DNA of 64,000 bases, from the NCBI GenBank assembly GCA_024195265.1, contig JAJLRJ010000005.1, forward strand, positions 46,183,515 to 46,247,514, given 5' to 3'. A program made the position numbers and the translations under genes. Positions 12,804-51,069 of the stretch are shown one piece after another. The notes under the pieces were generated by a model. That model searched no databases. It worked only from the letters and a program-made list of their open reading frames with translations, and was not told the DNA's origin. Position 1 is the first letter of the stretch. The number at the start of each line of letters is the position of its first letter. The stretch is from Dendrophyllia cribrosa. Its lineage: Eukaryota > Cnidaria > Anthozoa > Scleractinia > Dendrophylliidae.

Positions 12804-13896
12804 GTTCCATGTAAACATTGTAATGGCTATTTCGCTCACACGATTGGTCAATTAATTACTAAATGCCTTTCACACAAACCTAAACAAGCACAGTATCGCA
12901 AACCGAATGTAAACTTTTAAAGAAAGATGTGTAGTTATAAGGAAACGTGTTCGTATGTTACGAAAAATGGTTAGGGTTAGATTATTAGCGAACTTATTTA
13001 CTCCTCGATTACAAAAAAAATTATCGTAACGAAAAAGCCTGTGTAATCGACAACAAACTGTCAAGAATAAAGTGTTGTACAACAAATCAGTAGTTTTTCC
13101 TTTTCAAAACGAAAAATGCTACAAACGCGGCAGTTTTGTTATCGGCAACTCCCTTTTCCCTGTGTTTCGTCCCGACAGACGAGGAACTAATAGTCGACAA
13201 CTGTTTAGTTGTCGACTACAACAAGTTTTTTTTTAAAAAAGGTATCGACAACAAACCGTCAAAAATAAAGTTTTCGACAACAAAGTAGTATCCTTTTCTT
13301 ATCGATTTGGCCTTTAGTGTGTGGAGTATCGGACACTTATAGCGGTGATCAAATACACATAGTTGTCGACAACTATCTCTCTGAGATAGTTAGTTACCAA
13401 GAGTGCACCTGGTTTTCCAGTCGCAGAGCACTTCAGTTCCAATGGACACTCTGCGGATGACGTGCAGGTTTGCGGCGTCAAGCTCTGCGGCGGAAACAAG
13501 CAAAGGAAACGGCAGGAGATGCGTCTTATTTTCCAACTTGGTACCTGTCAACCGCACGGCCTAAATACTAACTTTCGTTTCTTCTGAAGGTCGCGCGCGC
13601 GCATGCAAGAAACAATCATTTAAACTTTAGATGTCGTGGCGTATTTCTCAACGAACATATTTCCACTGAAGAAGGGCAAAGCCCGAAACGTTTGGAACTT
13701 ATTCAAAAACTTTGGCACTTTAAAATAACATTTAAAAACGTTTTTTCATGAAATCCAAGTGCCACGCAGCCACCGAACTTATTTTTGTAGTAACTATCTC
13801 TCTGGTCTGTCGAGGCCCTTAACAAGCGTGACAGCTTTGGTTATCAACAGTGATTTACCAGTATGACCATTTTGGCAAACAGGTTTGTTGTACCCA
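12804..13896. other. Intergenic with GTCGACAAC hairpins
   Basis: Contains a 29-bp hairpin TAGTCGACAACTG...TTGTCGACTA at about 13189-13217. Two related segments (CAACAAACTGTCAAGAATAAAG near 13051, CAACAAACCGTCAAAAATAAAG near 13250, differing by few bases) suggest a diverged local duplication. A CTGAAGAAGGGC...GCCCGAAAC stem at 13665-13690 is discussed in the findings. Confidence 0.5.
13385..13500 (-). pseudogene. Possible Ig-domain exon remnant
   Basis: The minus strand reads AECPLELKCSATGKPG, which resembles the B-strand/C-strand start of an immunoglobulin domain (L-x-C-x-A-x-G-x-P). It is followed by a potential donor (CCAG then GTGCAC at about 13409). No acceptor consistent with the phase of the upstream Sushi/HYR exons was found, nor the downstream W and second Cys. 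It could be a stray exon, a pseudo-exon or chance. Confidence 0.22.
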
Positions 13897-17329: not shown

Positions 17330-19062
17330 CTGAAAATCACAAGTTAAAATCTACTGATTTTAAGATTTTTAGATCGTTTAAGATTAACTTTCTTTAATAA
17401 TTAGATTTAAAGAGAAGTTTGACTGTGATACCGAAATAATACGACACTATAATGTAATGTGCAGTTAAAGGAACACTGTCCCGGCTAATTTACCGTCGTT
17501 TTTATGATCATGTCCAGGTGCTTGCTTAAAGGTTGCTTAATTATCTTAGAATAAGAAGAAAAAATCGCTAAAAATGATGAACGCAAACAAAAATGAACTA
17601 AAAAGACAAAAAAAAAAACGACTAACAAAACTCAAAATTCCACCAGAATGGAAACTTTGATTTCTTGACCGCCTGCTGTCACTAAATCGAAATTGATGAA
17701 CTGTAATCCTGCACTTTTTCTCCAAACTACTGCTTCTCTCAATATAATCTTTTTTTTCGATTTAGGTCTATATTTGGAGGCATTTACCGATATAACATAG
17801 AAATTTCGTTTTTCGCCAGGACAGCGTCCTTTTAAAGACAATTTTTTTTCTAAAATCTCTACCAATGTGTTGCGACCTTACTCCACTTTGTTCCTATCCA
17901 CCGGCCCGAAGGCGTAAAAGGTGTCCTTGTACAAGACTTCAACTTCACATTCAATCAGGTGAATTTTAAATACACCTATGTGGAGCGATACAATGTCAAC
18001 CAAAGACTCCAATCACCAACCCTCCACTCTTAAGCCCGAAGCTATCCTCTTAACCCCGGGGGTACTCAGCCCAAATCAGGGAAGGGGTGTGCCGCCCAGG
18101 CTGTCAAACCCTCACTCTGTTATGCAGAAGAGTGTTCGCACTTCTGCCACGCTGTTTATGACTTAAATTGAACTGAAAATGACGCGCTGGTTTGATTCCT
18201 GACAATGATATCGTTTTTGTCGGATGCAAGGTTGGCCTACAGGAAATGTCGGGGAAATATGTCTTGTTAACTGAAGGGCATCTATCTACCCTGTCTATAA
18301 CAGTGTCAACCCACCCCACCCTACTGAATTTAGTTCAAATTGGAGTACCCCTGGCTCTCATAAGAACAAAATGTTAACTGATCATTACCATGTTGTCTCG
18401 CTATTGATTTTAGCAAATAAAACAACTTACGTTTGAGCGTGATTGTAAACGAGCATCCACGGTAAATGTTTGGTTTTGGGAAGGCGAAGTCCTTCACGGT
18501 ATACTCAACCGTATATTTTCCAGGAACTTGGAAGGTCTGACCGTTTCGATAGTTGGCACTAATTTGAGGAGGCAAATGAGAATTGTCCGAACAAATCGGC
18601 CTGCCCCAGGAAACCCTTACGGATGCACTGCGAGGCTCTTTGACAATATCGCTTGGACAGAAACTACAAGATGGTAGCTCTTCATCTGTACACAAGAAAC
18701 AATAGCTTGAGTTTAGCAAATATAACAAAAAACGTCTAAACAACGTAACTATTTAGCTGATTTTTTTGTAGCTCATATACCATGGTCCTAGTTCTGAATT
18801 TTAAAGTAGCTGAGTAGGATTCTTCGTTATGGTCCCGGCTGCTTTCACTAATTCCTTGGTTGTTTTAATAGTCCGCGCACCTGCAGTGCGCAGGACAATA
18901 ACAAGGCGCGTGGTTTAATGAAGTTGTTATAGATGGGTAGCATTCAAATACTCCTAGAATTGCGGCAGGTGGTATGTTCCCTCGCGGCGTCGCCGCTCAA
19001 AATGGCGGCTCCCCTGCCAAAACTCTGTCCTCGCTCGTAATTGCGGCTTCATTGCCAAAACG

Positions 19063-19096
<34 letters not shown>

Positions 19097-19097
19097 C

Positions 19098-19134
<37 letters not shown>

Positions 19135-22100
19135 AAATAATGAATTGAAGACTTCATCAGCTATAAAAGTGCTCAATAGATAAACTAGAGCGATATGTAG
19201 ATTTGTAGAGATGGATTACTTGGTCGAAGACATTTATTCACTGCTACTCAGAGTTTCATGCTTCTTACGAAGCAATCATCAGGCAACTGCCTACAATAAC
19301 GGATACATAGAATACATACAAAATTTGAAATTACAGAACAATACCTAATGGCGTGACGTGCGGAGATATGATTGGTTAACTAAACGAATACAGTTTTCAA
19401 CAGGAATTTCTTAGAATGTCTACAAGTAGATAGGAGTTCGCTTCTATTGTTCAGTGTTGACATTTCGGGTCTGCATATGATGAAATATTTTTCCCATAAA
19501 CATAAATTACAACGCTTGTTTACATTTGAATACGATCTTGCTTGTTTAATCTTACGCCATCTGATGTTGTAAATGACGTCTCTTCTTTTAAGCTCCGGAT
19601 GTATTTGCTTAATTCTGTTGCATGCTTGTATTTTTCATTTCTAAATGAGCATACATGATTTCTGTATCTTAATTTAAACGCTGTGTCACAAAGTCCGACG
19701 TATGTCTCTTTGGAGGATGATGTTGTGACTTCAGCTTGGTAAATGATGTTTGTGTCGTTGCATTTTCCGTTCATGGGGCACGTGCTTGGGTTCCGGCAGT
19801 TACAATTACTATCTTGGGTGAGATCAGACTTATTAATTTGTGATTTGTTGTGGTTGGATATAATCGATTTTATATTATTCATGCAGCTGTAGCTCACATT
19901 AACAATACCGCAAGCTACGTTGGCTAAGAAGGACTATCTTTTTCCTGTGCTGCAAAATTTTAACTAGATGTGTTACTTAGAATTCCAAGGATTAAGTTTT
20001 TTTATTTTTTTTTATTTTTTTACATTATAATAAAATTCATTATGTTGGGATTAGAATGTCTTCTCAGATCACATTAAAGTTTGTCATATGATTACCTCTT
20101 ATTGTAACAAAAAACTGACAGCTCCTATGATTTCCAGCTTTATCTGTCGCGGTAACATGAACTAAATGCCGACCAATGGTAAAGTTATAAGGAGACACGT
20201 GACTGGACTGCACTGTGACCTTAGCATTTGGATCAACGGAAAGTGAAGTGTCATTAGCACGCACTTTCCAGGACACCACTTCGGCGGGACTTCCTTTTTT
20301 GGCGACTATTGTTATGTCATCCGGACAATAAACATCTGGTGGCCATGTGTCTAAATCAAAGCATACATCCACATTTGTCAGCTTTTGTTTCTAAATTCAA
20401 GGGTGCTCAATACTGGGTCAAACGCATGAAAAATGGCTTGCGTCACCTTCGTCAATTCAAGACCCCCGCCCTTCCGCCAATTTCGCGCGTTCGCACTCGC
20501 GCTCCATAAAAAAAGAGCGCTTGACCGCAGGTTTCTTGCGTCACAATAATGCGAGAATTTTCAAACAACCTACCAAGATAGTTAGATCGCCACCTTCACT
20601 TGACAAACGGAAAATTTAAGGTACTTTTTGAAAACTATTGAGTTCGTATTTCGTTGTTCAGTATTATAATTATTCTAACAGCGATATGAACGAAGCGACC
20701 AAGCGAACGATCAAAGTGGACCAAGCGGATACCAACTCGTGTCAGAAAGGCCGCTGTGCGTTGTTATACTGAAATAACACTGGAGATACACGAAAGCAAT
20801 CGCCACTTGCTTAAAACTCGTTTCCTCTTCATAGTTTATTTTCATGTAGTGCGGATTATCTCAGTAAAACATTGTGCTCTAGTAGAACAGTAGGACGGCG
20901 CTTCTTTCTTAAATTTCTAAAATGCTTCAGAGAGGAGGCAACTACCCGATTGTGAGGAGGGCGGAAGACCCGTACGTGGCATTTCATACGAATAACTTAC
21001 CTACACATTTGTGAATATCTCCGCTCCATGTTCCATTAGGCTGACATACAAATTGAAAATAAACTCTATCGTGGTCATCTTCCAGAGCATACCCAACTGG
21101 ACAAGAAAACCCGCACGTTTTGTGGACTGATGAAGAGCCAGTGATACACCGGCTATCAAGGGAATTTGTCCATTGCATAGGTGGCAATTTAGGACAGTCA
21201 GCGTTCACTGAAAACGGAAGAAAACAGTTAATTTTACAAACGTACTTAGAAGTAATATAAACTGCATACGATTCCTCAAAAAAGCAGGATGAAACTCACT
21301 GGATACAAATTTCGAGAGTACATTGTTTTTGACAAAAGAAACAATAGTCCGAATGTACCTACTCGTCGGCTGTTTATATCTTTCTTATCAAGAAGGTCAA
21401 ATCTGTGAGTTATTAGTAACCTTTTAAGTAAATTGGGCCTCGTCAACAGAATCAAAGTTATATATGTGTGCATTTCTTAGAATAAACGCGTTTATTTTAA
21501 ACTCTGTTGCTTTAAGGACGCGTTTATTCAAGAATTTTAGGCTATAAGAAAGGTCAGGCACACACAAAGTGCCATATTCTTAAAATAGAATGGTTTGTAC
21601 AAACAAGGGAAAAACAAGAAAACAAGAGAGGTTTTTTTAGAATGATATGGTAAAACCCATCTTAGATTTAGCAGATGTTGCGTGGGGGCAATAAAATAGT
21701 TCCACGTAAACCCTTATGGCACAAATTCAAGTTCTTCAGAACAAAGATGCCGGCATTGTTAACAGACCAAGCTACTGGCGGACTCACCTTCAAACGCTGG
21801 GATGGGTGAACATTGCCACAAGACGAAGATTCCATCGTTAGATTTTAATTTATAAAAGTTGAAATAGTCTTACTGAAAACAGTCTACTGGATGAAATTAT
21901 TACTTATTTTTTAATTTTTAAATACAAAAGTTGTAAATTCAAAATTTAGAGCAATTCATAACAATTTTTTGTTGTAACTTAGTTCAAACCAAAGTATAGA
22001 GCAAGGCTGATACTACGTAGAACATTTAACGCGACAACGACATGATAGAACTCAAACTGAAAGCCAAAATGCAACCGTGGACAGCTGTTTCGATCTGGTT

Positions 22101-22665
22101 GGGTCTCGTCAGCACGGTGTGTAGCAGAAAAAAGATAGAAAAACTAACGCCAATTCTCTACCAAATCGCACGTGGTGATGACTACAGATGAGCTCGAAAA
22201 ACTGGCCTTCATAAAAGCAATTTTTAATGACTACTGATCTCAGTGGGTACCTTTCAAAAAAATTGTTTATACTCGCGTTATTTTAAATTTTCCAACAAAA
22301 TGCAGAATGTTTCATTTTATTGTAATACGTTATTATTCTGTAGGCCCCTGAGAAAGCGTTCCATATCAGAACTGGTAAGGTTTGTTTTAACATTTCGGCA
22401 TTCAAAAGAGCGTGCAGCCATGTACACCATATCAATCAGAAGAATATTGGCTAAAAATTTGTGTCCAGCTTTTTGAAAATTCCAAACCATTTTTTGAGAC
22501 GTGAAGGGTGTGGTGTGAAAATATAAGTTTTCTATTGGCCAACTTGAAGGCGGAAAACAGCAATGAGGATCGATATTATTATTTTCAACTTGTATGTACT
22601 TTACCTGCTGAAATTCCTAGTTGAAAAATGATAACAAATACTTGAAACGCGATCATCGTTTTCAT
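17117..22665 (-). CDS. SVEP1/polydom-like secreted protein: signal, Sushi, HYR, HYR, Sushi
   Basis: Five exons are read on the minus strand: 22665-22605, 21207-21001, 20350-20096, 18685-18431 and 17329-17117. All introns are GT...AG and every internal junction is phase 1, so the modules can be skipped or shuffled without frame change. The encoded order is signal peptide, six-Cys Sushi/CCP, two HYR (hyalin repeat) domains and a second six-Cys Sushi. This equals the Sushi-HYR-HYR-Sushi core of SVEP1 (polydom), an extracellular adhesion protein. No VWA domain precedes it, so it is shorter at the N-terminus than SVEP1. No stop codon was found in frame after exon 5, so at least one 3' exon is missed or lies elsewhere. 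Introns contain a Penelope-like insertion and a MITE. The role is probably extracellular matrix or cell-surface recognition (inference). Confidence 0.75.
18054..18354. mobile_element. MITE in intron of Sushi/HYR gene
   Basis: The left end CCCCGGGGGTACTC is answered by GAGTACCCCTGG at the right. The body is non-coding. The GGGGGTACTC start recalls a MITE type I believe is common in cnidarian genomes; that link is from memory only. It lies between exons 4 and 5. Confidence 0.5.
18431..18685 (-). CDS. Exon 4: second HYR domain
   Basis: 255 nt, identical in length to exon 3. Contains [31 protein letters not shown] and CSFTITL. The usual TATDxxGN is altered to [11 protein letters not shown]. Acceptor TTGTGTACAG and donor GTAAGT; phase 1 at both ends. 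Confidence 0.82.
19064..19133. repeat. (TA)n microsatellite with AACGTT centre
   Basis: Two long TA runs separated by AACGTTTTA; the left run is itself bounded by AACGTT, so the block is strongly self-complementary. It lies at the 3' side of the minus-strand Penelope-like fragment. Confidence 0.95.
19240..19289 (-). ncRNA. Hammerhead ribozyme-like fold (Penelope-associated)
   Basis: On the minus strand the core is in order: CTGATGA (19282-19276), stem II TGCTTC-GTAA-GAAGCA, then GAA, then a very short stem III (ACT...AGT around 19254-19246) ending in TA at 19246-19245, the usual U-H cleavage site. Stem I pairs GTTGC before the core with GCAGT after it (five pairs, two of them G-U). Short-stem-III hammerheads are known from Penelope-like elements, and this one lies about 230 nt downstream of a Penelope-like endonuclease on the same strand. 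One T-T opposition at the base of stem II may lower activity. Confidence 0.6.
19520..19897 (-). pseudogene. Penelope-like GIY-YIG endonuclease fragment (intronic)
   Basis: A 125-aa open segment carries a Cys-rich [15 protein letters not shown] knuckle, NIIYQAEV (GIY strand), [18 protein letters not shown] (YIG strand with catalytic Arg/His region) and a HATELSKYI helix. It lacks the upstream reverse transcriptase and so is a 3' fragment of a Penelope-like element inserted in the intron between HYR exons 3 and 4, in the same orientation as the host gene. It differs clearly from the 2690-3110 relic, so two lineages are present. Confidence 0.78.
20096..20350 (-). CDS. Exon 3: first HYR domain
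   Basis: 255 nt. It begins [12 protein letters not shown] and ends [12 protein letters not shown], with the conserved HYR features: early CP, central VSW, GxHxVxxTATDxAGN and C-x-F near the end. Acceptor TTGATTTAG and donor GTAATC; phase 1 at both ends. Confidence 0.85.
21001..21207 (-). CDS. Exon 2: first Sushi/CCP domain
   Basis: 207 nt, acceptor TTTTCAG at 21214-21208 and donor GTAAGT at 21000. Six cysteines are spaced as DCPKLPP, SRC, KTCGFSC, QFVC and IHKC, with GTWSG before the last Cys, as in Sushi modules of SVEP1-type proteins. Phase 1 at both ends. Confidence 0.82.
22605..22665 (-). CDS. Exon 1 of Sushi/HYR gene: signal peptide
   Basis: ATG at 22665 opens [20 protein letters not shown], a textbook signal sequence ending in a small-residue cleavage site. 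The donor CAG|GTAA follows at 22604, leaving one base over (phase 1), which fits exon 2. The 61-nt exon is too short to be noticed as an open frame. Confidence 0.72.
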
Positions 22666-33776: not shown

Positions 33777-35198
33777 CTTAAAGATAATGCCAAATACATA
33801 AAGCGATACAAGTGATTCATTGAAGCCGCCTTCAGACGGCAACTTAAGTTTGCAACGTGTTAGAAAACTTCAAAATTTTCACACGACAAATTTACAGAAA
33901 CCTTAACTTAATTTTCAGTCCGGAATGCTTTGACGGGGACACCTTAATGATGCCTTGAAACCTTAAAAAGATACTTTTTCGTCCTCACTGAATTGTTAGC
34001 TGCATCTTCGGAATCTTAGGTACAAATATCTGACGCGAGTGGAGTTTAGCACATTAAAACACGCAAGTCAAGTCAGCGTCAGCGATAAAACTAAGAACCA
34101 AAGTTGTGTCAATTCTTTTTGAGGTTTCTAAGGCATCTCCATAACATTCAGCTTCTTCAGTAGAAAGGGCAAAGCCTTTTTTTAAGTACCTTGTTGAAAT
34201 ACAGGTTTATAGAAAATAAAATAGTTTTGTGAAGTTATTCCCAACATCAATAATGACCCAAAAACACTGTAGTGACTCTTGAACTATAAAAATAATAATG
34301 ATATTTTTTAACTGAAACCAACATCACAAAATACAACGAAAAACTTACTAGAATCTAAAATTAAATGAACTAAACCTAACTAAGCTTAACAAATTTATTC
34401 TGTAAAAGTCCTTTCTTAAAATACGACAGAGTTGGGGCTTCATGCAGAGGCATGCTTAAATTGTTTCAGTCATCTGCGGAAAAATTGATGGTTGTCCAGT
34501 GCCCCCATTTTTTGGCCGCAGCTGTTTTACGTACATTGTTCTTCAAGTCTAGTATTATAAATGTGAAAATCTAAGCTGTTTTGGATAATTTGTTTATATC
34601 ATGTGCGCATGATGCCAAACAAGTTACACTATACAGCTTTCGAAAGTTAAATAGTTGTATAAAAATATGTCCGCAACGAAAACTTAATTTGAAATCGTGA
34701 ATCTAAACGATGGGAGAAAAATGAGCTGCATTCTTAAAAATTAGGGCAATCATATCTCTCCTTGCTCTTTTCTTTCTATAATTGTAAATTGAGTAAATAC
34801 CAAACTAATTATTCATTGGAAACCCTTTTTAAGTGACCACTGCCTTATCAACCGACAGACCGCGGAAATTATCCAATTAGATCATTATTATGTTGCTTAT
34901 AATTTATTTTGTGTATAATTAATGTTTGCAAAATTTACAGTTTATGCATGCAAGTTCAGCCAATGCAAATAATAAATTATAACCAGAAAAGTTGAAATTT
35001 GTTGATTTGTTGATCACCACGACTGTGCATGACGTATGCCAAATTAATGTACGTACGCCTACCGCAAAAGTGTACTGAGTACTACTCAAGGAGTTGTCAG
35101 GAGGCGTAGAAATTATATCACGCAAGATTATCTGCAAGGGATGATACTAGCTCAATTATAGCTATATTTTGGTAGATAGTCCACAAATGTCAATGAAG
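32396..35198. other. Intergenic, no gene recognised
   Basis: Contains a LINE-tail-like AATAAATTGTTGTTTTGTTG at 32962 and an (ATT)n microsatellite at about 33746-33776. There are no conserved domains or convincing exons. Confidence 0.45.
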
Positions 35199-35709
35199 TC
35201 ATTGAAAAGCTACCAGTGCAAAATGTTCCTACCTACTAAGATTATATTACAGGATACATGAACAGAGTACAGCGAGCAACAACTTGCACATAGTGGAGAT
35301 CTCCCAAGAGCAGTATCATCCCTTTACTTTATTATGATCTCATGAGCAACAAAGAATGCAGTAAGGGTGTCGTTAGGTCATTGAAAAGCTACCAGTGCAA
35401 AATGTTCCTACCTACTAAGATTATATTACAGGATACATGAACAGAGTACAGCGAGCAACAACTTGCACATAGTGGAGATCTCCCAAGAGCAGTATCATCC
35501 CTTTACTTTATTATGATCTCATGAGCAACAAAGAATGCAGTAAGGGTGTCGTTAGGTCATTGAAAAGCTACCAGTGCAAAATGTCCCTACCAACTAAGAT
35601 TACATTATAGGATACATGAACAGAGTACAGCTAGGAACAACTTGCACATAGTGGAGATCTCCCATGAGCTATGCCATCCCTTTACTTTATTATGATCTCA
35701 TGAGCAATA
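35199..35709. repeat. 179-bp tandem repeat, 2.85 copies
   Basis: Units start at 35199, 35377 and 35556 with GTCATTGAAAAGCTACCAGT. Units 1 and 2 are virtually identical; unit 3 has several substitutions and is cut short at a 16-base G run (35721-35736). Non-coding. Confidence 0.93.
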
Positions 35710-36299
35710 GTTGAGGTGGCGGGGGGGGGGGGGGGGTGTTGACGTCTGCAAATAAGGGTTGGGTTTGGGGTGGTGGTAGTTAAGGGAAGCAGGGTGGGGC
35801 TTGGAAAACACCTCCTTGACATTTCCATGAGAGAGAAATCAATACACTCTTATTCCAATATTGCAATTTGTTTTGGAAATAATAATGTCGTAAATATATA
35901 TTCAGGCTGAATTGTGCGCGCAAAAGGTTTGCGTACAATAAGAAATCGTTTAATTGAACTTATCGTATATGACTCCGAGGACGTGTACAAGACAAAAATT
36001 AGGTGGTCTGTAATAGTTTTAGACAATCGTGACCACTCACAAAGGTTGTTGTGAACAAAACAATGCCATTGGAGTCAAGCTAAAATTCTACAAAAAAAAC
36101 CCTCAAAGCTAAATCTTCGTGTTGAATTTGAAATGTTAATTTGAAGAAAACAGAATAACTGGTAAAAGATTGAACATTCTTTCAACTTACTTCAAAAACA
36201 GGTGACGTCTACCTCATTTTTGTGAGAAAATACATATCAAATAACCCTAATCTGAGATTTCAAGATGATTTATAGTTAGCCCTAAGCATTACCTTTTTA

Positions 36300-38222: not shown

Positions 38223-40244
38223 GTACAAGTGATTGCATACCTTCCGTTCTGGTAGTTTTTTTTCAGAATTAAATTTGGCGCCATGTGATCCATGTAATGA
38301 TTGTCCTTGCATGCTCATAGCTGGTCTCATCAACACTTAAGTAATCGTTAGTAAGGAAAATTGGATGCGTGGAATCAAAAAGAGAGAAGTGTTTGCTTAC
38401 CTCTTGAAGTGGACACTTGTAGCAAAGGGTTTCTGTACTTGGGGACTTGTTGGATGCTGTTATGGAGGTAGATCTTGAAGAAATACAGAATCATGTGGTA
38501 ACAGCTTCTCCTGCAAGAGAGGAAAAGTGAAGTAAATCAGCTTATGTGCTTACGTATTCACAATACTGACTTATAGTGGTAACCAGCTGCTGTAACTGAC
38601 GCATGACTAGACCAGGAGAATAACTACTCCCCCCCACACCCCCCCCCCCCCCCCCCCTCCCCCCTCCTTGGTGTGGTGTATCGAGTCCATCAGATGCCCT
38701 CCAGTATTTTGTAAGCAATTCCTATAAATGAACCACTTTCCTTTTTCTACACCTTAGTAGAGAGAGGTATTGAGTAATCAAGCGTCTTTTAGACCTTTTA
38801 ACAACAAGGACACTAAGAATTACTGACATTCACGTACAAAATTTCAACTGAAGTGGCACTGTGTGCAAGTGACAGTAGGTCGTCAGCAGGATTAGCACTG
38901 ATGTGAAATGTGTCCGGAACATCTTTGGATTCGTAACCTGAACACCGCAGAAAAGATAAAAAATAGAATTAAAAGGATGTCAGTTAATACCCAAACAATG
39001 TCTCTAGTCAAGAATCTACGGTATGTGCCCAGAGTATCCGGAGGGCGTCCCCATTATCTTGCAAAATGAGACCCTCAGTCTGCAATATTTTCACCCGCCC
39101 ATCAACAAGCCTCCCCCACCCCTACCCCATCCCGTTGTTCACTCCACACCCCTCCACTTACAACATGGCTGGTTCCAATCGTAGCCTATTGTGGTATCAC
39201 GAGCGGAATGACGTAAGGATCTCCCTGGCTTCTTGATTTATCGTGGGTCACATTCTAAATTCAAACGTTAGTTTTCTCGAACTGGCGTCCTTAGTTTACC
39301 TGCATAGATGGAGAAAGCAAATGTAGGGCACAAAACGAATCAGACTGGCTCTCTTTATGCGGCCCCTTATGTATTAAACACATCATCTCTCAGTTAGCAT
39401 AGAGAACGTATTGCAACAGAAGCAAAATCATTGGGTTTGAATCCCATTAAAGCCACATTTATTTGTCGTAGCTTCAGCTTTTACTCCTGTCAGTGGCTGC
39501 TGAGTGTATTGAATCAGCACCATAGTCTGGTATTGGGTTTGTATCCCATTGTAGCCACCACCGAGTTGTTAACCTACAGTTAGGCGAGTGTGGTAATTTT
39601 GTCACTAAAAGGATGCTAATTACAGTCCAGTCTGTGTTCCAATGTAATATTTGCATTGAGAGTCAGGTGGTTATTAATAGCTTTTCCTACAAGAGAGGAA
39701 CAGTGAAGTAAATTAGCTCACGTGCTGAAAGATCCACAATACTGACTTTTACTGATACACAGCTGCTATAAGTGAAGTATGACAAGACCAGGAGTATAAC
39801 AACTGTCCTCCTCCCCCTGGAAGTGGCGCATCGAGTCCATCAGATGCCCTACAGTATTTTGTCAACAATTGCTATAAATATTCACTAAAATGCTTTTTCT
39901 ACAATCCTTCTTCTACACCCTAAGAGGGAGAGGCATTATGTAATCAAGGATCTTTTAATAGGAGACAATAAGATCTTCACGTACACAATCTCAACTGAAG
40001 TAACACTCAAAAGTGATAGTCGGTCGTCAACAGGATTAGCACTATGATGTGAAGTATGTCCAGAACATCTTTGTATTTGGAACCTGAACACCGCCGAAGA
40101 AAATAAAAGTCAGTAAATACCGGGAGGTACCCAGAGCACCCGGTAGGCTGGGTGGGGGGGGGGGTTAGGGTTACATTTTGTCCCTGCGACATGTCTCACG
40201 GAGTTCAACTTGTTGAACTTCATGGGACTCGTCGCGGGGACAAA

Positions 40245-40606
40245 ATGGCTCCGAGCCGTTTGAAACGAAACCGCTGACCTCATTAGCATTCATTTCTCTC
40301 TTTTTTTTTGTTTGTGCCTGGATTAGAACGAAAGTAGGCTTTTATTATCAGATACAAATTAGGCCAAGGCAAAGCGATTATTAGATCTAAGCTAGATTCG
40401 CGATTAGGTTAGATTTAGGGATAGGGTCACCTTTTATAATTAAATTTTTGTTGGGTTTGCCGGATCAACCCAGTGGTCTAGTGGTGAAGGAGGGATGTTA
40501 GCACGCAGGAGGTTCCGGGTTCGATTCTAGGTGATTTATTGCATTTTTCTTTTTCTGATTGGAAAAAATTCTATAATTGGTGAAAAGTGTCGCTCGGAGC
40601 CATTCC
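40245..40606. mobile_element. tRNA-like element with inverted ends (copy C)
   Basis: ATGGCTCCGAGC at 40245 and its reverse complement GCTCGGAGCCAT at about 40595 enclose a tRNA-like block at 40470-40532 with an A-box-like TAGTGGTGAAGG and a B box GGTTCGATTCT. Outside it is a larger repeat built from ACATGTCCC and GTCGC(G)GGGAC motifs. The tRNA part does not form a clean cloverleaf, so it is a SINE-like derivative. Confidence 0.55.
40470..40532 (+). ncRNA. tRNA-like (SINE-type) sequence
   Basis: A-box-like TAGTGGTGAAGG and B-box GGTTCGATTCT lie 34 nt apart, close to normal tRNA spacing; the acceptor stem is not recognisable. Most like the Asp/Glu/Gly group in its TAGTGGT start. Confidence 0.45.
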
Positions 40607-41294
40607 TGCAATTAACGCCATGTTCAGTTCACTCGAGGGGACGTGTCGCTGCAACATGTCCCTGAGACAAGTCCCCGCGACATTTTCATGTGGTGTGCAA
40701 CCGTTATGATTTTTTCCCTGCTACATGTCCACGCTACATGTCCCTCAGTGTGTACTACACAAATGTACGAATGTACAAATGTACAAATGTACGACATGTC
40801 CCTGGTAAATGACCCCTCGTGTCTGACCACCTTCATGGTACCTGGTTTGAAAACACATCGAAATACTGACAGCTGACAAAAGGTCCGACACTAACAAGGT
40901 AGGTATTGTAATATCACGTGAATCTGGACCTGATGAAATAATGGTTAGTATAGAAAACATTGTAGCCCCCTTATATAACATGCCACCTGATCTGAGTTAG
41001 TATGGAGAACTTTGCGCAGAAACAACGAGGTCTTTGGGTTTGAATCCCGTTGAAGCCACAGATTTTAGTACCAGCTTTTATCTCTCTTCTGGTGGCCCTT
41101 ATATAACGGTACACATCACCTCAGTTAGTATAGAGAACATATTGCATCAGTAACAAAGAGGTCGTTGGGTTTGAATTCCCATTGAAGCAACATATTTGTA
41201 GGTTTTTTTCACCCTTTGTCAGTGGCTGCTGAGTATATTGAATCAGCACCATAGTGGATTGGGTTTGAATCCCATTGAAGCCAGTAGTTGTTAA

Positions 41295-41708
41295 AGGGAG
41301 GGTTTCACGGTTCGGCGCATGTGCAAGCTATGACGTAACTCCATTTAATTTCATTGTTTAGACCAATCGGAAGCGAGTGGATAACTATGGCGGGAAATTT
41401 GCCCGTGAAAATGTCGCGGTCAGTCAGTTCATTGAATGGATGATTATACATACCCAGGTACGCCATGAAAGCCACCAGAGCGTAGAATAAATCTTTCGGT
41501 TTGAAGGTTTTAATTATTCAGTGTTGACTTTGTCGGTGAAATCCGTTGAAATTTTCTGTGAATTTTAGTCATCCTTCGCTATGTTTGGACTAATTATAGT
41601 ATTGATTATTGAAGTAAATGCGAGTGGTTTTTTAACCGATAAAACTGGTAAGAAAGCGAATAAAGCATTTTAATCTGTGCACATGCGCCGAACCGTGAAA
41701 CCATCACT
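41295..41708. mobile_element. TTAA-flanked MITE, 414 bp
   Basis: Terminal inverted repeats AG(G/T)GA(G/T)GGTTTCACGGTTCG extending to GGCGCATGTGCA, directly bordered by TTAA on both sides (41291-41294 and 41709-41712). TTAA duplication is the piggyBac habit, but the first bases are not the usual CCC. Non-coding body. Confidence 0.75.
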
Positions 41709-41954
41709 TTAACCTAGGGTTAAGGCGAGTGTGGTGATTTTGTTACTAAAAGGATACATCTTACAGTCCAGTCTGTGTTCCAATGTTATATTTGCCTTGT
41801 TAGTCTGGATTTTGCCTCTGATCGGCCGTAGCTGGGAAGCATTGGTCCCTCTCACTTAACTAAAAGAAGCACATTAATATTTAACCTAAAGCATGTGGCC
41901 CACCATCGTAATTGAAATTATGGTTGTTCTAAAGGCTTTCTCTTCACACGATCA

Positions 41955-42320
41955 TCACTGCACTTCCCTCTCTGCTATCGTTCAATGATTCGTTTAATGA
42001 TCTTGCAATTTCCGTCGGAAGGCTTCATGCGTCTTGATTTCGCACACCAAAAAAGGGATAACCATTTTAAACAAGTAGCACTTCCCCCTCTGCTTTCGTT
42101 GGATGGTGATTCGTTTAATGACCTTGTAATTACCGTCTGAAGGCTTCATGCGTCTTGATTTCGCACACCACAAAACGGGATAAAACCATTTAAAAAAAGT
42201 AGCACTTCCCTCTCTGCTATCGTTCAATGACCTTGTAGTTACCGTCAGAAGGCTTCATGCGTCTTGATTTTGCACACCAAAAAAAGAAGATAACACCATT
42301 TAAAAAAAGTAGTTCAGTAG
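41955..42320. repeat. About 120-bp tandem repeat, three copies
   Basis: Units begin CACTTCCC(T/C)CTCTGCT at 41961, 42079 and 42203 and contain GGCTTCATGCGTCTTGATTT. Related single segments occur at 46830 and 48713. Confidence 0.88.
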
Positions 42321-43123
42321 CGATGTCTGACTAACCAAAATATCCCTGAAGGTGATTAGACTTTGCTGTGATTTGATACTGCCAGATGTTCCTGAAATTA
42401 AAATATTGGTTGTCCAGAAAAACACACATGACACAAAAAAGCACACCGGCTAACATTTATTTCCAATTGCGTTTTATGATGAACATCATTATAACTAATA
42501 TAATGTTCCTAAAATTAAAACAATTTGAAGCACAGTAAACATACTTTTATTTTCTATGTTTTTTTCACAGTCACATTTGTTATCACATGGTTTGCACACT
42601 CTTATGTCATGTATTCTTTTGAGAATGCCTAATAAGTACAAGTCGAGCCGGATTCGTCGATTGTTGCTCAAAGATCAGAAAGTTAGTTGTAAAGCAAGCC
42701 TCAAATGACGCAAATAAAACACACTGAAAGACGTTTTTCAAATTTTATTCCCAACAGAAAAGCCGCACGTAAGATGGTTTACACACTCATGTCATTTTGT
42801 TACACCACTATGCGCTAGCGATCGCAAGTTGAAGTACGTGGAATTTTGTCGAATGCGTACATTAGCTGCGTCGAAGAAAGAAGAAATCGGACGGTTTCGC
42901 ACGTAGCTGAGGGTTTCGCCGAAAAAATGTTGATTCATTTGAAGAAAAAAAGGACGTTTCTTTCCTGAAATGTAATCATTAGGTTAGTATTGTCTTTGAA
43001 TTAAAACCATTCTTTAGTATTGTTGCTTACATAAGTATATGTTTTGGAATAAAGACAAATTATTTCACATGTATTTTTAATAACAAAGCTTTTACACGTA
43101 TCTTCAACTATGACACAGGCCTA

Positions 43124-43708
43124 TTAACTATGCATGAGGGATGCGCTCCTACGTGAAACATTTAGCGTCCAACAAAACCGAGGAGTATTTCCTAACGGAA
43201 TACCCCAGGATCCTCTAGACGGTACGCAAGTGTGATCTTGCAGCTTGCTATCGAGACTTTCTCGATACCAAGCCTTCAGATGTCCACAGTTAAATTGTGA
43301 ACTATTTTGTTTTCGAATTCGGGCCGAATTTGAAAACAAAGTAGAAGAGCCAAAGGTATAAAGGGATCGAATGATTGTCAACTGGTGTTATCTCCTGCAG
43401 TGATACAACTTCGTAGCTGTATCACGTAAAAAATAAACACTGCCAGACTTTTATTTCCAACTTTATTCATCACGCAGTTATTTAGCCCCACGTACCTCAA
43501 GCCAGTGGTTGTCACTGACTGCTCATCCATATCCGTTGTGGGCGTACGTCGCTGGTACTCGGACGCCGTCTGTGGCCATCTTGATGAGGCAACAATGTCT
43601 TGCTTGGAACTGTCCTACTAGTGCCAAAAGCTGGCGCTCAGTCTCCTCGCAGTTTCTGGAGTGATGAATTTGGAAACGATCTACACTATGGTGTGTGCAT
43701 TGTCCCAT
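43124..43708. other. Unassigned stretch with weak coding potential
   Basis: GC content rises and two open frames on the minus strand (43124-43381 and 43523-43708) are of mixed composition rather than low complexity. I recognise no domain, and splice sites joining them are not obvious. They may be decayed transposon exons or chance. Confidence 0.2.
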
Positions 43709-44459
43709 GATACCCCGCGAGCTAAAAAGTCACGATTAACCTGTAATCCAATCTACGCTGGCAAATTTAACAGTACGCTACTACCTCTATTTATAACTTC
43801 CTATCAAGCCTTTGTTTTTTGGTTTGTTTTTGGACTTAAAGTCATTAAATCTTGCGAATTGTTTAGTCAATTTTGTTGTATAGCCAATTTCATAGAGGTA
43901 ATAGCCCGTCATAAATGCCAGCCTGCCTAACTATCTGCCTGTCACCAGAGAGGCCACTAAACCGACAAGGAGTGGCCAAATAAGGTCTCCTTCCAACAGC
44001 TGAATAGCCTGCAGCCTCCAGTGTCCTAAGCCTTGTCATAATTAACATATCTGGATGAACCTTACGGAAGAAAGATAAGACAAAGAGAAGAGAAAGAGAA
44101 AGTTTCACTTAATGCAGCGCTTGGACTGTCAAGTGAAACGTAAATGATCAACTTAATTTCGCGCAACTAAGCGGGAAAACGAAATAATAACGACGACGAA
44201 TAAGTATTTCCGAAAAAAGCCGAAGTGACGCCGAATCGGAGTCGCAGAAGAAAATGAGCCGATCGAACACAGTACTCGAATAACGTGTTACGAAACCCAA
44301 GGCCCAAATGAAAGGAAAAGGGGGGAAAAGATACCAGCCCAGGGGTCCCACTAGTTAATTAAAGTACAACTAAGTTAAGCCGAATAAGAAGTCCGTTGAC
44401 TTCTGACCGAACGTGTGTGCATCAGTGAGGTATGTGTTGTAAGGTTCATCCAGAGCTCT

Positions 44460-44705
44460 ATTTACCCACCATTCCCAACCCACAAGGAAATGACTGACCA
44501 AATTACTGAGATGACCATTGGGTGTGCTGTGGTACCGGCGATAACCATTGGGCATGCTGTTATTATGGGGTGAACCATTGCTATGCTGTGGATGACCATT
44601 TGGCATGCTGTGATATTGGGTTGACCATTGGGCGTGCTGTAATACTGAGGATGACAGTCATTGGTTGATCTGTATCTGTATTTGGTGGTTGAAACAGTGT
44701 GAGCC
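44460..44705. repeat. 30-bp minisatellite, copy 1
   Basis: Units of the type GACCATTGGGCATGCTGTGA followed by TACTGGGTT, five or six diverged copies, then a conserved flank with CATTGGTTGATCTGTA. On the minus strand a unit reads QYHSMPNGQP. A second block with the same flank is at 51070-51235. Confidence 0.8.
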
Positions 44706-44840
44706 AAGTAAAAATGACGCTCAGGAAGTGGAAGTTAACTAAAAATCAAGGAAAGAAATTTATTCACGAATCATAGTTTACTCCAGTTGGTATATGTTCC
44801 ATTTAAGATAAAAATAAATGTTCCTGTGGACCAAATCGGA

Positions 44841-45018
44841 AATTGTCTATTTCCGAGTAAGCCTTAGCCTCCTTTTTCAAACCGAGGCCAAGTGCAAAAC
44901 TTTTCATATGGATATAGGTTTTATTTGCACGTGAAAGAAACCTTATTTTCATATAAATGATTTTGTACTTGGCCTCGGTTTGAAAAGGCGGCTAACAGCA
45001 ACTAGGAAATGGGTTATT
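44841..45018. mobile_element. Palindromic MITE, diverged member
   Basis: The arms correspond to the 12627 and 63606 elements (TTTCCGAGT start, CCGAGGCCAAGTGCAAAACT, TTTTCATATG) but carry many substitutions, so it is an older copy. Confidence 0.65.
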
Positions 45019-46286
45019 CCAACTCTCTCCAATCCTATAATCTTCGGAAAATGATAGGAAACGTTCATACAATCTTCGGAGAAAATTGCTCAAAACTTCA
45101 TAATTAGTGTCGTTTATATAATAAACAAAAAACAAATGGCTGCTTAGTTAAGGTTAAGGTCTCGAAAGTTTTCATTCCGACCGGCCCGGCCTTATTCACC
45201 CCCCCCACCCCCCCCCCCCCCCCCCCCAACCCTTGCCCCACATAATTCACTCCGCATACCTTTTTCCAATAACTTCTGTAAAACTGCAAGGACCACTTGA
45301 ACAAACAGTAGCAAAATGTAGCTGGATCTTTTTTACCTTTTTCCACCCCAACTTCTCACGATGGGGCTGGGATCCACTGTGACTAGTTCTAATCGTAGCC
45401 AATCGTAGCCTATTTGGGCCTCAGGGTGGAATGAATCTATATTTTCTGTCACGTGAAGTGTGGAGGATCTCCCTGGCTACTTGATTAATCGTGGGTTATA
45501 TTCTAAATTCAGACTTTAATTTTCGCGGACTGGCGTCCTTGATTTACACGCATAGATGGAGATAGCAAATGTAGGGCACAAAACGAGCCAGAAATTATCG
45601 TACCTGGTTTGAAAACACATCGAAACGCTGACCTCTGACTGAGCTGACAGCTAACGAAGGCCGGACAGTAACAGGAAAGGTAATGCATTATCACGTGAAT
45701 CTAGACCTACAAAAATAAGAGAACATATTGCAGAAGTTACTAAGAAGTGTTGGGTTTAAATCCCATTAATGCTACGTATATTTGTCGTGGCTTCTGTTTT
45801 TACTCCTCTGTCAGTGACTGCTGAGTCTATTGAATCAGCACCATAGTCTGGCATTATGTTTGAATCCCATTGTCGCCACAACCATGCTGCGAGTTGTTAA
45901 CCAACAGTTAGGCGAGTGTGATGATTTTGTCACTAAAAAGATACTACTTACAGTCCAGTCTGTGTTCCAATGTAATATTTGCATTGAAAGTTAGGTGGTA
46001 AGTATTAGCTTCTCCTGCAAGAGAGGGAAAAGTGAAGTAAATCAGCTCACGTGCTTAAAGATCCACAATACTGACTTATACTGATAAACAGCTGCTATAA
46101 CTGAAGAATGACAAGATTAGGAGTATTTGATGAACTACTGTCCTCCTCCACAACAACAACAAAGCTTTATTGTATGTTTAAATAAATAAATTACAAAGGG
46201 TTACAAGGATTGGCCCCTAGAAGTGGTGCTTGGAGGCCAGCAGATGCCTTCCAGTATATTCGCTACAATATTTTTTTCTTCTACAT

Positions 46287-46392
46287 GCTAAGAGGGAGAG
46301 GTATTATATAATCAAGGATCTTTTTAAAAAAATCCTTGATTACATCATACCTCTTCCTCTTAGGGTTAAAGGGTTAAAATACCCTTTAACAA
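46287..46392. repeat. Long hairpin, copy 1
   Basis: AAGAGGGAGAGGTATTATAT...AATCAAGGAT is followed, after a short T/A loop, by its inverse ATCCTTGATTAC...CCTCTTCCTCTT. A second hairpin GGGTTAAAGGGTTAAAATACCC adjoins it. Repeated with compensating and non-compensating changes at 48168-48272. Confidence 0.85.
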
Positions 46393-48167
46393 AAAGGAAA
46401 CAATAAGAATCACTGATCTTCACGTACAAAATCTCAACTGAAGTAAAGTGGTAGTCGGTCGTCAACAGGATTAGCATTACGATGTGAAATATGTCCAGAA
46501 CATCCTTGGATTCGGAACCTGAATACCTCAGTAAACATAAAAGAAAGAAAAGGATGTCACTTAATACCCAAACACTGTTCCCATTCGCGGATCTACGGGA
46601 GGTACCCAGAGCATACTGATCCTGTCAGTGACTGCTGAGTATATTGAGTCAGCACCATGGTCCATTGGGTTTGAATCCCACTGAAACCATCACCGTGCTG
46701 CGAGATGTTAACCTACAGTTAAAGCAAGTGTGGTGATTTTGTTACTAAAACGATACTACTTACACAGTCCAGTGTGTGTTCCGATGTCATATTTACATTG
46801 TTAGTCTGGGTTTTACCGTCAAAATGTTTCATGCGTCTGGATTTCGCACACCAAGTAGACATCTGTGGCAAGGGGATTTAGGCACTTGGGGACTTGTTGG
46901 ACGCTGTTATGGAGACAGATCTTGAAGATATACAGAGCTGAGTGTTATAATAACTTTTCCTGTAAGAAAGATAAGGTAAAGTAAATCGGTTCACGTGCTG
47001 ATACATCCACAGTACTAATTATACTGGTACACAGCTGCTATCTGTAACATATGACAAGACTAAGATTATAACTACCCCTTCCTCCTGGGTGTGGTGTATC
47101 GAGTCCATCAGATGCCCTCCAGTACTGTCAGCATTTCCTATAAACATGCACTGCTCTCGCTTTTCCTTCCTAGTAGAGAGAGGTATTACGTAATCAAGGA
47201 CCTTTTAAGACCCTTTTAACAAATAGGACACGTTCTAAATTCAGACGTTAATTTTCGCGAACTGGCGTCCTTAATTTACATGCATTGATGGAGAAAGCAA
47301 ATGTAGGGCACAAAAATTAAACGAGCCAGAAAGTATCGTACCTGGTTTGAAAACACATCGAAACACTGACTTTTGACAGAGCTGACAGCCAACGAAGGCC
47401 GGACAGTAACAGGAAAGGTAACGTAATCACGTGAATCTGGACCTGATGAAATAATAGTTGCAACCCTCTTAGATAACATGTCAACCGAGTTAGTATGGAA
47501 AACATCGTGGAGTAACAGAAGTCTTAAGCTTTGAATCAAGTTGAAGGCACAGATTTTAGTCCGGTCTTCTACCTCACTTCCTCCGGTCCCTTATATATCA
47601 TCCCCACTCAGTTAGCATAGAGAACATATTGCAGTACTTTCAAAGAGGTCGTTGGGTTTGAATTCCAATAAAGCCACATATTTGTCGTGGCTTCTGTTTT
47701 TACTCCTCTGTCAGTGACTGCTGAGTGTATTGAATTAGCACCATGGTGTGGTATTGGGTTTGAACCTCATTGTAGCCACCACCATGCTAGTTAGGTGAAT
47801 GTGGTGATTTTTGTCACTAAAAGGATACTACTTACAGTGCAGTCTGTGTTCCAATGTAATATTTGCATTGAGAGTCAGGTGGTAATTAATTCGCTTCTCC
47901 TGCAAGAGAGGAAAAGTGAAGTAAATTAGCTCACGTGTTGAAAGATCCACCATACTGAATATACTGAAAAACAGCTGCTATAACTGAAGCATGACAAGAT
48001 TAGGAGTATTGAATGAACTACTGTCCTCCTCCCCAACAACAACAAAGCTTTATTGTATGTTGAAATAAATAAATTACAAAGAATTACAAGGATTAGCCCC
48101 TGAAAGTGGTGCATGGAGGCCAGCAGATGCCTTCCAGTATATTCGCTACAATACCTTTTTTCTACAC

Positions 48168-48272
48168 CCTAAGAGGGAGAGGTATTATATAATCAAGGAT
48201 TTTTTAAAAAAGATCCTTTATTATATAATACCTCTCCCTCTTAGGGTTAAAGGGTTAAAACACCCTTTAACA
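48168..48272. repeat. Long hairpin, copy 2
   Basis: The same structure as at 46287. The arms differ at several positions from copy 1, and the right arm is a better match to its left arm (ATTATATAATACCTCTCCCT), which suggests arm-to-arm correction. Confidence 0.85.
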
Positions 48273-49724
48273 AAAAGGACACAGAATAAGAATCACTGAT
48301 CTTCACGTACAAAATCTCAACTGAAGTAAAGTGGTAGTCGGTCGTCAACAGGATTAGCATTACGATGTGAAATATGTCCAGAACATCCTTGGATTCGGAA
48401 CCTGAATACCTCAGTAAAAATAAAAGAAAGAAAAGGATGTCACTTAATACCCAAACACTGTTCCCATTCGCGGATCTACGGGAGGTACCCAGAGCATACT
48501 GATCCTGTCAGTGGCTGCTGAGTCAGTATATTGAGTCAGCACCATGGTCCATTGGGTTTGAACCCCACTGAAACCATCACCGTGCTGCGAGATGTTAACC
48601 TACAGTTAAAGCAGGTGTGGTGATTTTGTTACTAAAACGATACTACTTACACAGTCCAGTCTGTGTTCCGATGTCATATTTACATTGTTAGTCTGGGTTT
48701 TACCGTCAAAATGTTTCATGCGTCTGGATTTCGCACACCAAGTAGACATCTTTTTCAAGGGGATTTAAGCACTTGGAGACTTGTTGGACGCTTTTATGGA
48801 GGCAGATCTTGAAGATATACAGAGCTGAGTGTTAATAACTTTTCCTGTAAGAAAGATAAGGTAAAGTAAATCGGTTCACGTGCTGATAGATCCACAGTAC
48901 TGACTTATACTGGTACACAGCTGCTATCTGTAACATATGACAAGACTAAGATTATAACTACCCCTTCCTCCTGGGTGTGGTGTATCGAGTCCATCAGATG
49001 CCCTCCAGTACTGTCAGCATTTCCTATAAACATGCACTGCTCTCGCTTTTTCTACACCCTAGTAGAGAAATGTATTACGTAATCAAGGATCTTTTAAGAC
49101 CCTTTTAACAACTAGGACACAATGAGAATCACTAATCTTCACGTACAAAATCTCAACTGAAGAAGCACTGCGAGCAAATGATGGTCGGTTGTCAACAGGA
49201 TTAGCACTATGATGTGAAATATGTCCAGAAACCTGAATACCACAGTAGAAATAAAAACATGGAAGAAAAGGATATCAGTTAAAACCCTAACACTGTTCCC
49301 AGTCGCGGAACTACCGAGGTGCTTAGAGCGCATTGCGCCTTGGGCGGCGTGGTTGTTTGTTGGGGGCCGTCCCCACTAATCTTGAAAAGGGGCCCTCAGT
49401 CTGTCACATCTTCACTCCTATCCCCCTTACCTCCTTAGTCACTCTGCCTACTATGTCCCACCCCCTCTTATCCCCTGATTCACCTCCTCCTTATACACTC
49501 AGCCTCTCTTATCTGCTTATTCACTGCCCCATGTTATTCTTTCCTCACCCCCACCCTTTACAAACTATTCTGGATCCACCGTGTGGCTGGCTCAAATCGT
49601 GGCCTATTGGGGCATCAGAGTGGAATGATCTAGAATTCAACTTCGATTTCTGTAACGTGAAGTGTGTAGGATCTCCCTGGTACAAAACGAGGCAAAGATT
49701 ATGTTACCTGGCTTGAATACACAT

Positions 49725-50037
49725 TTGGAGATCGAGCCTTTGCCATGGCGGCGCCAACGCTATGGAATGCTCTCCCTTTGGAACTTAGAAGCCTGAACAC
49801 TATTGACTGTTTTAAGACATTTTTACTTTTTACTTTTATGATTAACTCTTATTTTTATGGATTATTTAATCTAGTGTTTTAAAATATTTAAAAATGTTTA
49901 TATAGCTTTTAATAGTTATCTCTTAATATATTATGTAAATTTATTATGTAATTTAGTCAGCGATTTAGAATATTTTAATAGTTTTTAGCACTATAAAAAT
50001 GTATTTATTATTATTATTATTATTACTATTTATTATT
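49725..50037 (+). mobile_element. LINE 3'-end fragment inserted in the repeat field
   Basis: Reads GDRAFAMAAPTLWNALPLEL, the (F)xxAAPxLWNxLPxxLR motif at the C-terminus of CR1/Jockey/RTE-type reverse transcriptases, then an AT-rich 3' UTR ending in (ATT)n. The insertion point is visible because paralogous units at 40855 and 47345 read ACACATCGAAA without it. Confidence 0.78.
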
Positions 50038-51069
50038 ATCGAAACACTGGCTTCTGGCAGAACTGACAGCTAACAAAGGTCGGCCACTAACAGGATTGGT
50101 ATTGTAATATCACGTAGATCTGGACCTGATGAAATAATAGTTAGTACAGAGAACATTGCTCAGAAACAAGTCTTTTTGTTTGAATCCCATTGAAACGACA
50201 GGTTTTAGTCCGGGCCTGCGGTCCCTTATATAACATCACCCGAGTTAGCATGAAGAACACATTGAATCAGCACCATAGTTTGGTATTGGGTGTGAATCCC
50301 ATTGTTGCGAGTCACCATGTTGCGAGTTGTTAACCAACAGTTAGGCGAGTGTGGTGATTCATTGTTCCAATGTAATATTTGCATTGAGAGTCAGGTGGTA
50401 ATTAATGGCTTCTTCTGCAAGAGAGGAAAAGTGAAGTAAATCAACTCACGTGCTGAAAGATCCACAATACTAACTTTTACTTAAGAACAGCTGCTTGAAC
50501 CGACGTATGACAAGACCAGGAGTATAACTAGTGTCCCCCTCCACCTGGAAGTGGTGCATCGAGTCCATCAGATGCCCTCCAGTATTTTGTCAACATTTCC
50601 TATAAATATTCACTGCTATCCTTTTTCTACACCCTGAGAGGGAGAGGTATTATGGAATCAAGGATCTTCTAACACCCTTCAACAAAAAGGACACAGAATA
50701 AGAATAGCTGCTCTTCACGTACAAAATCTTAACTGAAGTAGCACTCAAAAGTGACAGTCGGTCGTCAACAGGATTAACACTGTGAAGGGAAGTATGTCCG
50801 GAACCTTTTTGGATTCGAAACCTGAATACCGCCGAAAAGACAAAAGTCAGTTAATACCCTAACACTGTTCCCAGTCGCGGGTCTACGGGAGGTACCCAGA
50901 GCAGACGGGAGGCGGTTGTTTTTGTGGGGGCTTATCTTACAAATAGAGGGCCCTCAGTCAGTCTAACATTTTCAATCCGATCTCCCCACCCTCTTACTCA
51001 CTCCGCCTGCCTTACCCCCTTTTTTAGTCCTCCTTATTCACCCCCCTCCCCCCCCCCCACATAATTCAC

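Follow-up and report, generated by a model that had tools for sequence, protein, structure and literature searches.

In canonical hammerhead ribozymes, the first pair of stem II, G10.1-C11.1, is conserved. Minimal type I hammerheads of Penelope-like elements (PLEs) were described by Cervera and De la Pena (2014) and Lunse et al. (2017), as related in sections of PMC7761336, PMC7229834 and PMC6155905. They are reported in the relevant passages of PMC7761336 without loop I-loop II tertiary contacts, and their role is termed unknown or a mystery in that review. For the Poseidon element PAc of Anolis carolinensis, the portions of PMC11167929 dealing with the ribozyme state that protein must be added for it to cleave in vitro, that ribozyme cleavage is dispensable for insertion, that the cut coincides with neither the start nor the end of any read, and that reverse transcription starts internally, at two adjacent sites.

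PLE hammerheads are already known, and the site described here is very likely another one, a variant at positions 10.1-11.1. It resembles the minimal PLE hammerheads, as outlined in the sections cited above, in the placement of its core in a PLE pseudo-LTR (pLTR), its weak stem III and its tandem occurrence, and differs from them in a stem III that retains 3 pairs with a 3-nt loop and in a U.U opposition at 10.1-11.1 common to its lineage. As in PAc (portions of PMC11167929), the ribozyme lies at the pLTR-ORF junction, copy ends appear to be set by an internal start of reverse transcription, targets are AT-rich and the reverse transcriptase carries a C-terminal GIY-YIG domain. The PAc ORF begins at stem II and is cut 26 bp inside, whereas here the likely start codon falls 88 nt after the predicted cut and copies terminate against (TA)n or other AT-rich DNA, either ~36 nt ahead of the ORF or ~33 nt into it. 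Animal non-LTR retrozymes also carry a type I hammerhead, a canonical one, in a mobile element; as portrayed in parts of PMC7229834, however, they are short repeats with RNAs of ~170-400 nt, whereas this site belongs to a coding PLE and is undetected by Rfam. A likely relative of these retrozymes occurs elsewhere in the window, at 22074-22118. Assignment of the site itself to the retrozymes was considered and rejected because it adjoins an endonuclease-coding stretch and escapes Rfam. Amniote intronic hammerheads (RECK and others) are likewise intronic and thought to be retroelement-derived; according to the account in part of PMC6155905, they have long been conserved in introns, whereas the motif here is one of many near-identical young copies.

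Within the window, by which the whole 64-kb stretch of analysed DNA is meant, the parts of the motif are as follows.

19236-19291, minus strand: type I hammerhead-type ribozyme motif in the PLE pseudo-LTR (models R1 and R2; descriptor scan)
19287-19283 (5' strand) and 19244-19240 (3' strand), minus strand: stem I (sequence)
19276-19282, minus strand: core strand CUGAUGA (sequence; CTGANGA...GAAA in 17/20 diverged relatives)
19258-19275, minus strand: stem II hairpin with GUAA loop, U10.1 facing U11.1 (sequence)
19245-19257, minus strand: core GAA, short stem III and H17 (sequence; columns 45-58 of alignment A1)

The minus strand reads, from 19291 to 19236, GGCAGUUGC-CUGAUGA-U-UGCUUC-GUAA-GAAGCA-U-GAA-ACU-CUG-AGU-A-GCAGUGAAU. 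Stem I has five pairs, two of them wobble. Stem II joins 19274-19269 to 19264-19259 in six pairs closed by the GUAA loop (19268-19265), with U10.1 at 19275 and U11.1 at 19258. The core GAA (19257-19255) is followed by stem III, in which ACU (19254-19252) and AGU (19248-19246) form three pairs around a CUG loop, and by H17 (A19245), which places the predicted cut between 19245 and 19244. The hammerhead core C3U4G5A6N7G8A9...G12A13A14, the A15.1-U16.1 pair and H17 could all be found by inspection and by the scan, and compensating changes back the three-helix junction that surrounds this core and opens at stem I. The original prediction was therefore accurate in placing CTGATGA, a six-pair stem II with GTAA, GAA, a tiny stem III, a TA position and stem I in order on this strand. 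The segment at the start of the core (19282-19291), GGCAGUUGCC, is nearly self-complementary and, as seen in folds, could form a hairpin competing with stem I. This segment is exact in 6 of 9 lineage loci (L061, L062, L063, L065, L069 and L070), and the ribozyme might be held off by it.

The descriptor used to scan for such sites was drawn up with knowledge of this one and demanded the core, H17, a stem II of at least 4 pairs (with a 10.1-11.1 mismatch allowed), a stem I of at least 4 pairs and a stem III of at least 3 pairs, A15.1-U16.1 among them. The only match in the 64-kb window was 19236-19291, and among 6800 dinucleotide-shuffled versions of the full window, 3 contained any match. The Rfam hammerhead families gave no match up to E 10 within 18800-19800; their gathering thresholds (RF00163 and others) were not reached at the site and in the window were reached only at 22074-22118. 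The Infernal search with hammerhead models that had been proposed as a check on the original prediction consequently failed to detect the site. Because the Rfam models miss the PLE form seen here, the annotation of motifs like it in animal introns may be incomplete.

To find diverged relatives, the endonuclease fragment was used as a search term; 150 matches were scored, of 812 candidates, and 20 relatives spanning 46-71% identity were chosen, with 751 nt examined after each match. CTGANGA...GAAA was present on the element's strand in 17 of the 20, the first core motif sitting 65-351 nt past the end of the open frame. No core was found on the element's strand in the 751 nt examined for each of the other three: other sequence begins soon after the endonuclease match in L066 and L071, and L072 has the motif on the other strand only. 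Shuffled versions of the same 20 sequences yielded a mean of 0.64 and a maximum of 3 with the core, and the opposite strand had it in 5 of 20, inverted pLTR copies being common there. A core not conserved among sibling copies had been named as grounds for abandoning the original prediction, which withstood this comparison.

Alignment A1 was assembled from 13 motifs, window excluded, namely 12 of these 17 and one from L060; the remaining 5 had the same motif as another row. Seven of the 13 belong to the lineage of the window copy and 6 to other lineages. Rows were picked by the CTGANGA...GAAA core, so that core invariance is partly a product of selection, whereas pairing was not selected. In A1, 91.2% of cells are paired, and both-side changes occur in 10 of 15 pairs (4 in stem I, 5 in stem II and 1 in stem III). 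The covariation score is 0.539, compared with 0.221 (sd 0.028) for shuffled alignments, 0 of 500 of which reach it, and at most 0.173 for slid ones; RNAalifold, with no structure supplied, returned the same three-way junction. In L063, of the same lineage, stem II is wholly rebuilt with pairing, core and U.U kept. Coding cannot account for the conservation because there are stops in all three frames. Model R1, built from the 13 A1 motifs without the window, found the site at 65.0 bits (E 1.3e-14) as its sole window match up to E 10, so that the proposed covariance check against PLE copies came out in favour of the motif. With model R2, built from the six other-lineage motifs, the site was again the sole window match, a weak one (17.1 bits, E 0.07). 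Core conservation among siblings and compensating changes in three helices bear out the earlier description of a hammerhead-type motif in a PLE pseudo-LTR, 3' of the endonuclease and on the same strand. A chance resemblance to a hammerhead, with which the position of the site under every Rfam hammerhead threshold would agree, is exceedingly improbable in view of the rarity of descriptor matches in shuffled windows, the changes in all three helices and the matches to both R1 and R2.

The canonical G10.1-C11.1 pair is lacking: U.U is found in the window and in 7 of 7 lineage motifs of A1, and G-C in 6 of 6 motifs of other lineages. The T-T opposition mentioned in the original prediction does exist in stem II, but it is not decay of the window copy, since all seven lineage motifs have it. 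On sequence grounds, the site counts as a hammerhead variant, not as the canonical form, and its distinctive feature is that the lineage keeps U.U beside the predicted catalytic core though stem II was rebuilt in one motif. Non-G-C forms may already be on record, as the search described in a section of PMC11014351 relaxed this pair, citing Lunse 2017 for an 11-nt core that lacks it. In the hammerheads covered by the pertinent parts of PMC7151607 and PMC6257768, the G10.1 guanine and the A9 phosphate bind a metal ion. It is conceivable, though rather unlikely, that the whole PLE lineage uses an active U.U hammerhead lacking G10.1, for which the PLE protein or a second ribozyme copy compensates; if true, this would be a natural hammerhead working without the A9/G10.1 metal site.

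The element around the motif comprises the following features.

19380-19896, minus strand: 3' part of the PLE ORF, linker and GIY-YIG-like endonuclease (ORFs 19520-19933 and 19380-19634; sibling homology)
19125-19157, minus strand: PLE tail, a start codon and ~11 ORF codons (MKSSIHYFIIL) joined to (TA)n (ORF starts of L023, L081 and L082; sibling 3' ends)
19060-19131, no strand assigned: (TA)n at the insertion point, broken by a short ACGTTTT stretch (sequence; like flank in 29/30 sibling loci)

Relative to its siblings, the window ORF is 5'-truncated and frameshifted, with sibling homology beginning at ~19896-19900, and the exact end of the tail is blurred by (TA)n. With the window copy truncated, the reverse transcriptase was examined on a relative, L088 (68% in the endonuclease match). 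The model of its ORF has a pLDDT of 87.9, and reverse transcriptases head its results in both Foldseek and VIA-align 2, with telomerase in the first Foldseek row. A C-terminal GIY-YIG endonuclease is indicated by the fold of a homologue, for which I-TevI was first in VIA-align 2. The same sequence is found on both sides of the ORF, as in a pseudo-LTR, in L023/L089, which is of the same family, and in 2 of 7 relatives. In L023 the ribozyme precedes the ORF start by 88 nt, and in L089 it follows the endonuclease on the same strand, ~2.4 kb from L023; by position the two are the same copy, with a broken reading frame. In the two relatives, the motif occurs before the ORF (L081, L082) and after it (L069, L070), giving the pairs L081/L069 and L082/L070. 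No upstream ribozyme was found on the element's strand in 5 of the 7 chosen 5' regions of relatives. In L070, the 3' pLTR extends past the start codon and meets (TA)n ~34 nt into the ORF, which fits internal initiation of reverse transcription as documented for PAc (portions of PMC11167929). The element is very likely Penelope-like and the site its hammerhead, located in the pLTR between the endonuclease stop and the next ORF start of a pLTR-ORF-pLTR layout. This confidence covers identity and layout, which a conserved structure that does not cleave would share, so the two assessments are not exclusive. In L067, L026, L034, L036 and L043, pLTR motifs of different PLE lineages are neighbours, some facing the same way and some opposite ways, and partial pLTR copies in inverted orientation are seen repeatedly, a pattern suggestive of PLEs inserting into the AT-rich ends of one another.

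Near-identical copies were sought in the same genome with 281 bp around the site (window 19420-19140) as query. At least 47 matching places were found (40 of 314 candidates scored), and at least 18 places, window included, had the full-identity score over 281 bp. The window itself is among the 30 loci fetched, some of which overlap: the 56-nt motif is identical in 26, 3 have differences in loop II only, and L045 is the sole locus with a core change. AT-rich, mostly (TA)n DNA begins ~33 nt past an ATG in 29 of the 30, and the 30th, L023, continues into an ORF starting MKSSIHYFIIL. A second 3' end is evident from 10 of the 47 listed matches, which stop at query position 228, ~36 nt before the ATG, and L089 likewise stops near this point, against a TA-rich stretch. 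Judged by this near identity and by ends lying against AT-rich or (TA)n DNA, the family is a very young one whose predicted insertion target is (TA)n or similar DNA, with two preferred 3' ends. These ends (~36 nt before and ~33 nt after the ORF start) recall the two adjacent initiation sites of PAc. With near-identical recent copies, copies in which ribozymes flank the ORF, and related lineages that differ at 10.1-11.1 in one genome, the family allows direct tests of what the metal-site pair, dimer formation and the PLE protein each contribute.

The motif, its conservation and covariation, the pLTR-ORF-pLTR layout in three copies and the ends against (TA)n were observed directly, whereas cleavage, ribozyme pairing, help from the protein, the order of steps and any effect on the host are inferred. 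In the fuller element, where ribozymes on one strand flank the ORF, both would most likely cut the element transcript at a point 88 nt short of the ORF start, giving unit-length RNA; they might act as a pair joined through the short stem III, and the element's protein might assist. Tandem transcripts would in this way be cleaved by paired ribozymes into unit RNAs. Reverse transcription would then begin close to where pLTR and ORF meet, with priming on AT-rich or (TA)n DNA, and the two places at which copies end there would be accounted for. The window copy is a 5'-truncated insertion of this very young family, sense-oriented within a predicted intron.

The site is probably a self-cutting RNA motif. 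Weighing against activity are U.U in place of G10.1-C11.1 and the folding of the isolated 56 nt, for which the hammerhead fold is at -6.0 kcal/mol and the minimum-free-energy fold at -13.1 kcal/mol, a gap of 7.1. Both would suit a conserved, hammerhead-shaped PLE RNA that no longer cleaves in the U.U lineage, its fold being kept as a protein-binding or reverse-transcription-start site, as would the seven U10.1.U11.1 motifs of A1 and the finding, given in part of PMC11167929, that the Anolis PLE continues to insert when its ribozyme is mutated. Against this, the unpaired core survives in 29 of 30 young copies and in L063, where stem II was rebuilt, which would be superfluous in a simple hairpin site; this argument is weaker than it looks, as the core was the selection criterion for the diverged rows. 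Overall, a non-cleaving structure is a minority possibility, and a self-cutting motif is preferred.

The insertion lies in a predicted host gene, the adjoining parts of which are listed here.

20096-20350, minus strand: predicted host exon with HYR domain (Pfam PF02494, E 1.9e-12; boundaries from sequence)
18686-20095, minus strand: predicted host intron, phase 1, holding the PLE copy sense (GT donor at 20095, AG acceptor at 18686; HYR on both sides)
18431-18685, minus strand: predicted host exon with HYR domain (Pfam PF02494, E 7e-09; boundaries from sequence)

The phase matches across the predicted 1.41-kb intron, and the flanking HYR exons with splice-like ends support the sense placement in a host intron that had been proposed. 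An active regulator of host pre-mRNA, cutting before splicing and lowering or re-routing the mRNA, would be in keeping with this orientation and has an intronic ribozyme precedent in Cpeb3 (PMC10919898). This role is nonetheless improbable. The window copy has a lone PLE motif, its stem III is short and the monomer fold is unfavourable, so any cutting of the host pre-mRNA may be weak or absent. The same 281 bp exist at 17 or more other places, so that conservation of the motif needs no role in this gene, and the insertion, probably a young one, may be polymorphic.

The host gene (22700-18431, minus strand) has a signal-peptide-like first exon near 22665-22605, followed by Sushi and HYR exons, and its product appears to be a secreted or membrane protein. 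The Rfam Hammerhead_1 match at 22074-22118 (minus strand, 47.2 bits), the only Rfam match in the window, sits sense in predicted intron 1 (22604-21208) of the same gene and is a diverged member of a short repeat family, of which 20 fetched loci are alike over ~230 bp. It seems that one gene carries two unrelated sense hammerheads. Elsewhere in the window, 13666-13690 (plus strand) forms a hammerhead-like hairpin, CTGAAGA-AGGGC-AAA-GCCC-GAAACG, which is unmatched by R1 or R2 and has the shape seen in repeats L022 and L067. At 35198-35734 a 179-nt unit is present three times in tandem, with two of the copies identical, and 38499-50909 is dense in diverged repeats of several families, many ~1-2 kb apart.
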